DNA of 64,000 nt from a bacterium (GTDB lineage: Bacteria > Cyanobacteriota > Vampirovibrionia > Gastranaerophilales > Gastranaerophilaceae): NCBI GenBank assembly GCA_017541465.1, contig JAFXYZ010000062.1, positions 1 through 64,000 on the forward strand, read 5' to 3'. Shown here in pieces: positions 10,955 to 61,460 of the stretch; within the stretch, counting starts at the first letter, position 1; every line of letters starts with the position of its first letter. A program made the translations under genes and the position numbers. Below the pieces are notes generated by a model. The model ran no database searches and was not told the DNA's origin. It worked only from the letters and a program-made list of their open reading frames with translations.

Positions 10955-10976
10955 GGTAGACTAAAGTCTACCCTAC
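10955..10976 (-). repeat. REP-like hairpin, GTAG-headed (GTAGAC type)
   Basis: The palindrome GGTAGACT.AAGTCTACC is followed by CTAC; read on the minus strand it is GTAG plus hairpin. A near copy lies at 38294-38315. The GTAG head is the known recognition tetranucleotide of RAYT-mobilised REPs. Confidence 0.7.
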
Positions 10977-10980
10977 CGCT

Positions 10981-11004
10981 GGGGTGAGGGTTTGCCCGTA
11001 AGGG
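10981..11004 (+). repeat. Relic end of the DUF559-type CTCTCC element
   Basis: GGGGTGAGGGTT followed by GCCCGTAAGGG matches about 21 of 24 bases of 61015-61038, the left end of the DUF559-bearing element and the 3' edge of its gene. Here there is no DUF559 gene, so it looks like a remnant. Confidence 0.55.
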
Positions 11005-11005
11005 T

Positions 11006-11748
11006 TTAATAATTTATCGCACCCTCTCGAAGAACTTTGCAGGCACAAAACCAACCTCCTTGGCTACGGCTACAATCATTTGTTTCGCAACCTGATGGAA
11101 CTAATCCTTTATTTGTCAAATAAAATAAGAAAACATCTAATCCCAACGTATTAGGCTTTCTTTCTCCGTTGATATCAACATAAATCTCGTCACAATATGA
11201 ATCATACAATGAACAATCAGCTGTTGGATATGTCAAAAGCACTTGAACACCATCGGCTAAAACAAACCTTCTATAATAATTACTTGAATCCCAAATTCTA
11301 CTTGAATCTTTATTTAAAGTATATATAGGTTGTACAAAACAACCGCTATTTATACCACATTCTTTTGCATTATGAAGAAATTTTTTATAGAGATTATATA
11401 CATTTTCAGAAGTAGTAGCCCATCCACCTTTGTCTGCTTGTGGTATTCCCTCTTCTGCAATAATTAAATTTGTTGCCTGCGCAAGCGTTGAATACGTTTT
11501 TTTAAGTTTAGAAACATATTCCTGATTATTTGTTTTATTAATCAAAGTCGGAACTGTTATAGCCGCAATTACACCAATAATAACAAGAGTAATTAAAACC
11601 TCGGCTAAGGTAAAAGCCTTATCTTTACCATCACTATGATTTAGTAACTTCTTTATAGAACTTGAAAAACTACGAAAGTTTTCTTGCCTACTTCTTTTAC
11701 AAAAGAAGTGGGGGGGGTAGGAACAGATTTATTTTTCAAATTATACAT
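11006..11748 (-). CDS. Prepilin-like protein, out of frame at a C8 tract (phase OFF)
   Basis: This is a type IV prepilin/pseudopilin-like gene. The start ATG at 11748 begins MYNLKNKSVPTPP, then a run of eight C (G8 at 11710-11717). With eight C translation stops about 18 codons later. With nine, the frame runs through a leader (HFF.KRSRQENFRSFSSSIKKLLNH) into AFTLAEVLITLVIIGVIAA and on to the end. The mature part carries the family's KLKKTYSTLAQATN helix, the DINGERKPNTLGLD motif and the C-terminus CKVLREGAINY. Prepilin peptidase would cut before the F of FTLAEV. The coding body is otherwise intact, so I read it as a switched-off gene, not a decayed one. A sequencing error in the tract is the main alternative. 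Confidence 0.75.
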
Positions 11749-15593: not shown

Positions 15594-16424
15594 CTAATAA
15601 TTTATCGCACCTTCACGAAGAACTTTACAGGTACATCCCCAGCCTTCTCTATTCGATGCACAATGAGTTGAATCATCGCAACCGACAGGATACAATCCGT
15701 TTTCTTTTAATGCAAACAAAAATGCATCTTTACCAATATCGTTAGGCTTTCTTTCACCGTTTATATCAACCAAAATCAGTCCACAAACATTATTTGAACC
15801 ATGAACCGAACGACTGCAATCATTTGAAAAAGATTCAATATCTACTTGTGTTCCGTCTGCAAGAATTAGTTTTCCTGTAACAAAATCATCTACAACAAGA
15901 CTCCATTCGGAGCCATCCAATTTTGTATATTTTCCTTGTCCAAAACAACCCGTATCAGAACCACATTCTTTTGCGTTAATTAAATGTTTTTTATACAAAT
16001 TAAACATATTTTCATGGGAGGAAGCCCAACCGCCTTTATCTGCTCTTGGTGTTCCTTCTTCCGCAATAATCAAATTAGTTGCCTGAGAAAGAGTTGAATA
16101 TGCTTTTTTGAGTTTAGAAACATATTCCTGTTTATTTGTATTATTCATTAATGTCGGAACGGTTATTGCGGCGATTACACCGATAATAACGAGGGTTATC
16201 AGAACTTCTGCAAGTGTAAAGGCACATTTTTTCCCTCTCCTACGGAGAGAGATTGAGGGAGAGGGTGCATCTGCATCTAAAAACAAATACCCTCTCTTAG
16301 AATTTCTAATGTTTAACAAGTTAAACATTGAAATTCTATTCTCTCCAAGGAGAGAAATGATATTTTTGTTAATATCTTTTTCATAGGGGGGGGTAGGAAG
16401 TAATTTATTTTTTATACTAAACAT
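15594..16424 (-). CDS. Prepilin-like protein, in frame at a C8 tract (phase ON)
   Basis: This is a 276-residue prepilin-like protein. It starts MFSIKNKLLPTPPYEKD, with PTPP encoded across eight C (G8 at 16386-16393), and here the frame stays open. A leader of about 68 residues precedes the cleavage-type motif CAFTLAEVLITLVIIGVIAA. The mature part has KLKKAYSTLSQATN, DINGERKPNDIGKD and CKVLREGAINY, closely like 11006-11748 and 30296-30973. Much of the leader is a palindromic element translated in frame (16233-16356). The ATG at 16424 is preceded by a purine-rich AGAGAGA ribosome site; a longer frame upstream lacks one. It would be an inner-membrane-inserted pilin or minor pilin; assembly genes are not in this window. 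Confidence 0.85.
   Translation of the reverse strand: MFSIKNKLLPTPPYEKDINKNIISLLGENRISMFNLLNIRNSKRGYLFLDADAPSPSISLRRRGKKCAFTLAEVLITLVIIGVIAAITVPTLMNNTNKQEYVSKLKKAYSTLSQATNLIIAEEGTPRADKGGWASSHENMFNLYKKHLINAKECGSDTGCFGQGKYTKLDGSEWSLVVDDFVTGKLILADGTQVDIESFSNDCSRSVHGSNNVCGLILVDINGERKPNDIGKDAFLFALKENGLYPVGCDDSTHCASNREGWGCTCKVLREGAINY
16233..16356. repeat. CTCTCC palindromic element read through inside a prepilin gene
   Basis: It begins CCCTCTCCTACGGAGAGAG and GAGGGAGAGGG. A long AT-rich inverted repeat follows (arms 16298-16317 and 16320-16338, near perfect), and it closes with TTCTCTCC/GGAGAGAA. The plan is the same as at 51111-51190, but here it lies in an open reading frame, between the C tract and the FTLAEV core. 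Confidence 0.7.
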
Positions 16425-34638: not shown

Positions 34639-34645
34639 AAAGATG

Positions 34646-34651
34646 TATAAT
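34646..34651 (+). promoter_or_regulatory. -10 box six bases before the RAYT start (leaderless promoter)
   Basis: TATAAT, TTTTTT, ATG at 34658, with no ribosome site. The box lies just after the left REP. Confidence 0.55.
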
Positions 34652-34657
34652 TTTTTT

Positions 34658-35191
34658 ATGAATTACAGACGGGTTTTTATACAGAACAGTTATGTTCATT
34701 TGGTTATTCTTGCATATAAGCGCCAAAATATTTTTACGGATAATATTGAGCTTTTAAGGTGTGCTTTTAAAAATGCAAAAAAATATTTTAAATTTGAAAT
34801 ATTGACAATATGTGTTCTGCCTAACCACATACATATGATTTTAAAACCTGATAATATTTCGGAATATCCGAGAATTATTACTTCCATAAAATATTATTTT
34901 TCTAAAAATATTAATTATGTTGGGCAGGAATGCCCAACTTACGGCTATATGAACAAAAGAGAGCGGGGAATATTCCAAAGAAGATACTATGAACATACTA
35001 TTAAATCTGAAGATGAATTTAATAATCACATTAATTATATTCACTTTAATCCTGTGAAACACGGACTTGTTAATGCGGTTAAGGACTGGGAATACTCAAG
35101 TTTTCATCAATTTGTCAAGAAAGGCTTGTACGAAGTAAACTGGGGTAGTGAAGCAGATGTTGAAAGTATTAAAAATTTGGATTTTGGATAA
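34658..35191 (+). CDS. REP-associated tyrosine transposase (RAYT, Y1_Tnp/TnpA_REP)
   Basis: RAYTs are HUH-type single-strand DNA nucleases that bind and move REP hairpins. In this 177-residue protein the HUH motif is His57-Ile-His59 (VLPNHIHMIL). The catalytic-tyrosine helix is NYIHFNPVKHGLV (Tyr127), followed by the family's DWEYSSFHQFVKKGLY. The gene lies between identical direct REPs. A third REP (34919-34942) lies inside the gene and is translated as residues 88-95 (VGQECPTY), between SKNIN and RERGIFQRRYYEH where relatives have no such segment as far as I recall. The start at 34658 is preferred over 34643 for its -10 spacing. It looks intact. Confidence 0.92.
   Translation: MNYRRVFIQNSYVHLVILAYKRQNIFTDNIELLRCAFKNAKKYFKFEILTICVLPNHIHMILKPDNISEYPRIITSIKYYFSKNINYVGQECPTYGYMNKRERGIFQRRYYEHTIKSEDEFNNHINYIHFNPVKHGLVNAVKDWEYSSFHQFVKKGLYEVNWGSEADVESIKNLDFG
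34919..34942 (-). repeat. REP inside the RAYT coding sequence
   Basis: GTTGGGCAGG.ATGCCCAAC followed by TTAC; on the minus strand the head is GTAA, as in the flanking copies. It is 24 bases long (eight codons), so the frame is kept. Confidence 0.85.
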
Positions 35192-51110: not shown

Positions 51111-51190
51111 CCCTCGCCCCTTGAGGGAGAGGGGTAGTTTTTCGAGTTTAAAATCGGAGATTTTCAACTCAGAAAAACGGGGAGAGGGGT
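51111..51190. repeat. CTCTCC palindromic element (intergenic copy)
   Basis: It begins CCCTCGCCCCTTGAGGGAGAGGGG, here in two pieces, then a long inverted repeat (arms 51137-51155 and 51159-51178, one extra base), then GGGGAGAGGGGTT. Same plan as the copy inside the prepilin gene at 16233-16356. Confidence 0.65.
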
Positions 51191-60987: not shown

Positions 60988-61032
60988 TCTCTCCCTCTCC
61001 TATGGGAGAGGGCTGGGGTGAGGGTTATCCCG

Positions 61033-61386
61033 TCAGGGCATTACCAATTCTGAAATTGTTTTGTATATTTTGTCGTAAACACCCTCAAGATTTTCGTTAA
61101 CTTCATTATTCCAAAATCTAATAATTGTAAATCCTAAAGATGAAAGAAAAATTGTTCGTTCCTCATCATATTTTATATTTTGAGTTTCGTTATGCTGCCC
61201 GCCATCAAGTTCTATGATTAATTTTATATCTGGGGCGACAAAATCAACAATATATTTTCCTATAGGATATTGTCGTTTAAATTTTATATTTTGAATTTTG
61301 CGGTTTCTAACCAAATTCCAAATAATTTTTTCCTGTGGGGTTTGTTGTTTTCTCAATATTTTTGCTAAGTTATAGTTTTTGCTCAT
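61033..61386 (-). CDS. DUF559 (Vsr-like endonuclease fold) protein
   Basis: This 117-residue protein belongs to the DUF559 family of small restriction-endonuclease-fold nucleases related to Vsr. It has LRKQQTPQEKIIWNLVRNRKI, FKRQYPIGKYIVDFVAPDIKLIIELDGGQH with the likely catalytic Asp/Glu, then YDEERTIFLSSLGFTIIRFWNNEV. It lies wholly inside two facing 34-base repeats. The last codons run into the left repeat region. A TATAAT box lies six bases before the ATG with no ribosome site. Substrate DNA is unknown; action on the repeats is a hypothesis. Confidence 0.9.
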   Translation of the reverse strand: MSKNYNLAKILRKQQTPQEKIIWNLVRNRKIQNIKFKRQYPIGKYIVDFVAPDIKLIIELDGGQHNETQNIKYDEERTIFLSSLGFTIIRFWNNEVNENLEGVYDKIYKTISELVMP

Positions 61387-61392
61387 AACTTA

Positions 61393-61398
61393 ATTATA
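61393..61398 (-). promoter_or_regulatory. Extended -10 box six bases before the DUF559 start
   Basis: On the minus strand TGTTATAAT, TAAGTT, ATG at 61386. The promoter lies just inside the right terminal repeat. Confidence 0.55.
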
Positions 61399-61460
61399 AC
61401 ATACAATCAACCCTCACCCTAACCCTCTCCCAGAGGAGAGGGAAATTGCCGGCAAATTGA

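Follow-up and report, generated by a model that had tools for sequence, protein, structure and literature searches.

A small gene for a DUF559 nuclease lying between inverted repeats raises the question whether gene and repeats travel together as a mobile element and, if so, which enzyme moves them. In the window, i.e., the whole stretch of 64,000 nucleotides analysed here, the two arms of such a locus match in inverted orientation at 32 of 35 bases (Table 1), an agreement first put at 31 of 34 in an earlier note on this DNA and confirmed here with arms one base longer. The note had also described a hairpin of the CTCTCC/GGAGAG type at each end and DUF559 as the only gene in between, and both descriptions hold: each arm is a hairpin of CCCTCTCC and GGAGAGGG with an 8-bp stem, followed by YTR-GGGTGAGGG, and the R1-N3-R2 cores are exact at both ends. 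No Y1 (HUH) transposase lies between the repeats, no GTAG/CGTC-tagged palindrome is found in the ends, and no intron family matches within the element. A defence role of the cassette was considered and rejected, PADLOC matches being weak at best.

Table 1. Features of the repeats and of the nuclease gene, in positions of the window.
Feature	Position	Strand	Description
Left terminal repeat	60992..61026	+	on the 3' side of the nuclease gene, with the triplex motif Y CCCTCTCC - loop - R1 GGAGAGGG - CTG - R2 GGGTGAGGG
Right terminal repeat	61409..61443	-	on the 5' side of the nuclease gene; repeats the left arm in inverted orientation
DUF559 (PF04480) nuclease gene, Vsr/EDxHD fold	61033..61386	-	117 aa; sole gene between the arms
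Gene-less satellite, two end units in inverted orientation	16233..16356		second unit 16290-16356, - strand, its R1 and R2 separated by a long palindromic linker
Single end unit	51111..51189	+	CCCTCGCCCC-loop-GGGAGAGGGG-palindrome-GGGGAGAGGGG; the palindrome separates the second and third strands
Relic of one end	10980..11006	+	GGGGTGAGGGTTTGCCCGTAAGGG; also given as GGGTGAGGGTTTGCCCGTAAGGG

The ends and the protein

Judged by their sequence, the ends of the cassette are the BoxC/PIT/TM intrastrand-triplex repeat, and they are therefore an already known element and not a new one. The TM motif has the consensus CCCTCNCCC-N3-6-GGGNGAGGG-N3-GGGNGAGGG and occurs in more than 260 genomes; its E. coli form was shown to fold into an intrastrand triplex in vitro, and no genetic-mobility genes were reported at its sites (Holder et al., 2015, PMC4666352). 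The window ends fit this consensus. Across the DUF559 loci collected for this study (see below) the hairpin arm R1 took 79 distinct sequences, and R2 mirrored its own R1 when an A to T exchange was allowed (GGGGAAGG with GGATGGGG, GGGGGAGG with GGTGGGGG, AGGAGAGGG with GGGTGAGGT). The R2-mirror score was 0.69 for the own R1 as compared to 0.46 for shuffled R1 and 0.48 for the R1 of other loci (p~1e-23 with both strands scored, a value weakened by kinship among the loci), and the mirror prevailed over the direct R1-R2 match by 77:8, a contrast that this kinship leaves unaffected. Such covariation of the third strand agrees with an intrastrand triplex. Duplication does not produce a mirror relation, which an antiparallel purine triplex requires, and the folded structure of the end is therefore probably a target of selection.

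The protein matches the PF04480 profile with 134 bits against a gathering score of 20.6 (E=2e-39), and its AlphaFold2 model (pLDDT 92.9) predicts a Vsr-like fold with an acidic/His active site as in EDxHD homing endonucleases. Foldseek placed PDB 3hrl (N. gonorrhoeae NGO0050) first, I-Bth0305I (3r3p, E=1e-5, TM-score 0.70) second and Vsr third. E19, Q39, D48, E59, D61, H65, D74, R77, and R90 were invariant in 44 sequences with 38-66% identity to the window protein and, since the catalytic residues are among them, a functional active site is being maintained. I-Bth0305I is a homing endonuclease of the EDxHD family (PMC3943268), under which DUF559 has also been filed (PMC9403480), and a role in very-short-patch repair has been proposed for VsrA, a DUF559 protein of Caulobacter (PMC12907096). 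The earlier statement that no mobilisation role is established for DUF559 has therefore to be read beside the homing kinship of the fold and of the family; in the open PMC papers searched, neither flanking repeats nor mobility was linked to YcjD, NGO0050 or VsrA, and no link between DUF559 and BoxC was found. In evolution experiments with Legionella, three segments carrying a transposase and DUF559 were hotspots of mutation and recombination (PMC12308824), which may represent a related activity.

Recurrence across phyla and copies inside genes

Following a proposal of the earlier note, inverted repeats were scored around many DUF559 genes. The loci came from related and unrelated genomes (n=112 after removal of duplicates). 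For each of them the 250-nt stretches on either side of the domain were compared motif-free for their best-scoring inverted repeat, with a threshold of at least 14, and 1131 control intervals of equal size were taken from other parts of these loci. The threshold was reached by 76 of the 112 loci and by 6 of the 1131 control intervals (0.5%), a strong enrichment near DUF559 over other places, on which the note had made its reading depend. Outside the Gastranaerophilales 19 of 21 loci passed, in Alpha-, Beta- and Gammaproteobacteria, Nitrospirales, Spirochaetes and candidate phyla. Of the 112 loci, 103 had a purine-rich hairpin within 250 nt on one or both sides, 77 of them on both, as compared to 2.5% of the control windows. 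The orientation of the end units relative to the gene was mixed (hairpin outward in 73, inward in 49). Among stand-alone DUF559 loci 33 of 79 remained under the inverted-repeat threshold, and 30 of the 33 domains located in long reading frames lay between inverted ends. In one Rhodospirillales locus (L068) DUF559 is fused to the N-terminus of TilS and the end repeats are absent, perhaps a domesticated copy.

The hosts of the in-frame cassette in the Gastranaerophilales were priA, ispE, hydE, prmA and a carboxypeptidase-like gene, to which metG (MetRS) of a betaproteobacterium and valS (ValRS) of an alphaproteobacterium have to be added. These genic copies contain no intron or intein and are read through in frame, leaving the host frame intact, and translation of their ends gives PHPNPLPQGERE- or SPSPAGRGK-like peptides; repetitive peptides like PHPNPLPQGERE in annotated proteins are accordingly suggested to be translated repeat ends. 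One priA linker carried full, short (scar) and empty or scarred alleles in genera g7, g38, and g11, full and empty alleles in g27, and full and short alleles in g35. The search for empty sites, also proposed in the note, found them within genera at priA. Between strains it yielded neither a clean junction nor a target-site duplication, the relatives of the window site being too diverged and the E. coli alleles complex; nor was a target-site duplication seen at the hydE and ispE junctions, which lie in fast-evolving linkers.

The nuclease sequences group by insertion site (priA, hydE, ispE) and not by genome, those of priA falling into a single clade. For seven priA copies, three resolutions of the host topology were rejected (AU p 0.001-0.046 with protein and 0.005-0.027 with DNA), although one of the trees tested had been picked with these very data and the backbone of the host tree is weak. 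The evidence that one site was reinvaded between genera is accordingly moderate, and it suggests a homing-like process at the priA site. Taken to its end, this line of thought makes DUF559 a free-standing homing endonuclease and nothing more, with the ends acting as target or homology arms and being spread by something else. The I-Bth0305I fold (EDxHD, PMC3943268), the clustering of copies by site, the conflict of the priA tree with the host and the resemblance of empty, scarred and full alleles to a homing cycle all speak for it, but it would leave unexplained both the copies that stand alone between genes and the way in which repeat number depends on DUF559 across whole genomes, as described below. 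Moreover, the gene is flanked by two whole inverted units, whereas a single split target would give half-sites, and the lack of an intron or intein is at odds with it as well. We consider homing by itself an unlikely explanation.

Satellites, repeat number and the RAYT gene

Three places of the window had been thought to hold gene-less relatives of the cassette. The one at 16233 is indeed a satellite with an inverted pair of ends, although its palindrome proved to be a linker within the second unit; the one at 51111, previously read as a two-ended element, consists of one unpartnered unit whose linker is palindromic; the relic at 10980 was recovered, and its 3' extension is the same as in solitary copies elsewhere in its own genome. 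This genome (2.1 Mb, 74 contigs) harbors about 60 dispersed end copies at up to 3 mismatches, 20 of them exact and most of them solitary, with the consensus YTCCCTCTCC-loop-GGGAGAGGG-YTR-GGGTGAGGGTTG, often followed by TACCCGTTAGGG. Its three DUF559 genes, that of the window among them, all lie between such ends, one of the three with a CCCGCCC variant. In a further genome (G085) about six inverted-pair satellites of ~220 nt carry the extended ends of its own DUF559 element. The picture of an autonomous element with MITE-like satellites consequently stands as far as the sharing of ends with a resident DUF559 element is concerned, but loses one of its supposed satellites in the window to a single end unit.

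The satellite at 16233 borders directly on a prepilin-type gene at its start codon, and here as in two other loci (L005, L007) end units are placed a few bases 5' of prepilin-type start codons (MFAFTLAEVLIT...), where GGAGAGGG-AA-ATG could act as a Shine-Dalgarno sequence. A GTAG-type palindrome, GGTAGACTAAAGTCTACC, is located at 10956-10973, beside the relic. The window also bears a gene for a RAYT-like Y1 transposase at 34643-35191 (+ strand, 182 aa, PF01797 E=8.5e-13), so that a RAYT and a DUF559 system are both represented in it.

Repeats of three sequence types were counted in 146 genomes of the family. At least three repeats were present in 36 of the 51 genomes with DUF559 and in 9 of the 95 without (p=4e-14), an association that was also significant under within-genus permutation (p=5e-5). 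RAYT occurred in 50 of the 146 genomes; in those free of it, at least three repeats were found in 17 of 21 with DUF559 and in 5 of 75 without (p=4e-11). When both genes entered one regression, DUF559 reached t=8.1 and RAYT t=1.05. The flanks of RAYT genes showed these hairpins in 2 of 34 cases, several having GTAG-type REPs instead. RAYT as the mover of BoxC-type ends was rejected both as a predictor and for these GTAG flanks of its own. With RAYT joined to GTAG REPs and DUF559 to triplex ends, two repeat-enzyme pairings coexist in the same genomes, and the parallel to RAYT-REP with a different enzyme, drawn in the earlier note, survives.

Some genomes depart from this pattern. Even a dedicated profile did not detect a DUF559 gene in the repeat-rich G045, G082 (57% complete), and G091, and the three searched repeat types were missing in eight DUF559-positive genomes. 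G045 and G091 have ~50 repeats each, and the autonomous copy may have been lost from them or a different mover may be at work. The paired repeats could be moved in trans by another transposase, with DUF559 as cargo or as a host-repair gene that profits from them, a role that would be in line with the very-short-patch repair proposed for VsrA (PMC12907096) as well as with repeats kept without DUF559 in these two genomes. Against this stand the lack of a further gene in the element, the recurrence of DUF559 across phyla as its sole cargo and the failure of RAYT, the commonest candidate, which comes with GTAG repeats of its own and contributes nothing to the prediction; we regard such a passenger role as improbable. 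A reading of the inverted repeats as ordinary terminators, or as hairpins arisen by chance round a small host gene, has next to nothing in its favor: hairpins can terminate transcription, but neither window arm was called by a terminator scan, and the comparison of DUF559 loci with control intervals refutes it. It is also excluded by the mirror covariation of the third strand, the recurrence across phyla, the dispersal of copies and the in-frame insertions into genes.

In E. coli K-12 the one DUF559 gene checked, ycjD, has three BoxC units within ~230 nt, all on its 3' side and one overlapping its 3' end; with 23 BoxC units in the whole genome, such proximity is estimated at ~0.5% by chance. 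In three loci (L072, L077, L079) the fabI-sapF interval holds either ycjD with BoxC units or the eefRABCD efflux operon (PMC12817139), an alternation that is possibly a replacement at a repeat-rich locus. At hrpB-mrcB and fepB-entC of E. coli, BoxC alleles are absent, replaced or collapsed and larger or replaced stretches differ, with no simple empty-site junction at either place; in E. coli O111:H8 (L075) a deletion between the hairpins of the hrpB-mrcB BoxC pair left one recombinant hairpin.

A candidate mover and its known relatives

The reading we favor, and hold to be probable, is a nuclease-driven mobile cassette with REP-like satellites that operates in a homing or REP-like mode. Architecture, recurrence across phyla, covariation of the ends, dispersal of the repeat and the presence, scarring or absence of copies at given sites all emerge from comparing sequences, and on these grounds the mobility of the cassette is well supported; that DUF559 itself is the catalyst, and by which chemistry, we infer. 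As the mover proposed in the earlier note it gains from the way repeat number tracks the gene, but the priA pattern would be at least partly homing rather than REP-like transposition. Against the favored reading count the mixed orientation of the end units, the stand-alone loci under the threshold, the repeat-rich genomes without DUF559, the DUF559-positive genomes without the repeats searched, the one-sided BoxC units of ycjD and the failure to find a clean insertion junction. Because the cassette is a nuclease gene between two BoxC/PIT copies in many phyla, the DUF559 nuclease appears to be the best candidate yet for the spreader of this repeat.

In this reading the minimal element consists of a gene for a nuclease of ~117 residues between two inverted units, each a Y/R1 hairpin with R2, and its non-autonomous relatives of one or two end units. 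The nuclease may recognise the end in its folded state, which probably arises by extrusion on single-stranded DNA or on the lagging strand, and nick or cut at or near it or at the empty allele, after which host repair would copy or join the cassette. One outcome would be that fixed sites (priA, hydE, ispE) are invaded anew in a homing-like manner and another that an end unit is occasionally copied elsewhere, giving rise to BoxC/PIT satellites; the homing mode could explain the genic copies, and the REP-like mode would be needed for the dispersed units. In its most far-reaching form, put forward here only tentatively, the cassette would be a transposable element of a new class, in which a lone Vsr-fold nuclease would recognise a triplex end, move its own cassette as well as non-autonomous copies, insert in frame into housekeeping genes without splicing and be the source of BoxC/PIT in hundreds of bacterial species.

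Many bacteria harbor BoxC/PIT repeats, which are tied to genome instability and previously had no known mover. With YcjD a candidate can now be named that is open to test in E. coli K-12, a standard laboratory strain. A cellular context would thereby be given to a natural intrastrand DNA triplex, and a likely role to a large uncharacterised nuclease family.

Among known systems, the published BoxC/PIT/TM elements (PMC4666352) have sequence and architecture in common with the cassette ends, together with single and inverted-pair copies and strain polymorphism; here, in contrast, they are linked to the DUF559 gene and their triplex relation covaries over many sequence types, the covariation of the third strand as the mirror image of the hairpin arm and the position of ycjD among BoxC units being new. 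Whalefall-1 (RF01762), the top Rfam match for both window ends (27.2 bits for the right and 22.4 bits for the left, below the gathering score of 37), shares their layout of hairpin, 24-nt hairpin linker and AGGGUGAGG; it has been described as a noncoding RNA, but a DNA repeat of the present class is the more probable identity. YcjD of E. coli, NGO0050 (PDB 3hrl) and VsrA of Caulobacter share the Pfam family and the active site of the window protein. With I-Bth0305I and other EDxHD homing endonucleases the cassette has in common the fold, the small size, the same-site clades and presence or absence within genes, but it differs from them by its in-frame read-through without intron or intein, its inverted triplex flanks and its dispersed satellites. 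The RAYT-REP/REPIN system (Bertels and Rainey, 2011, PMC3116915) likewise places an enzyme gene between inverted structured repeats and likewise occurs in solitary, paired and gene-bearing forms with genome-specific repeat types. The DUF559 cassette has neither its Y1/HUH domain nor its GTAG foot and coexists with real RAYT-REP, also in the window; new in this respect are the different (GTAG) repeats of the RAYT genes in the same genomes and a genome copy number that follows DUF559, not RAYT, also within genera.
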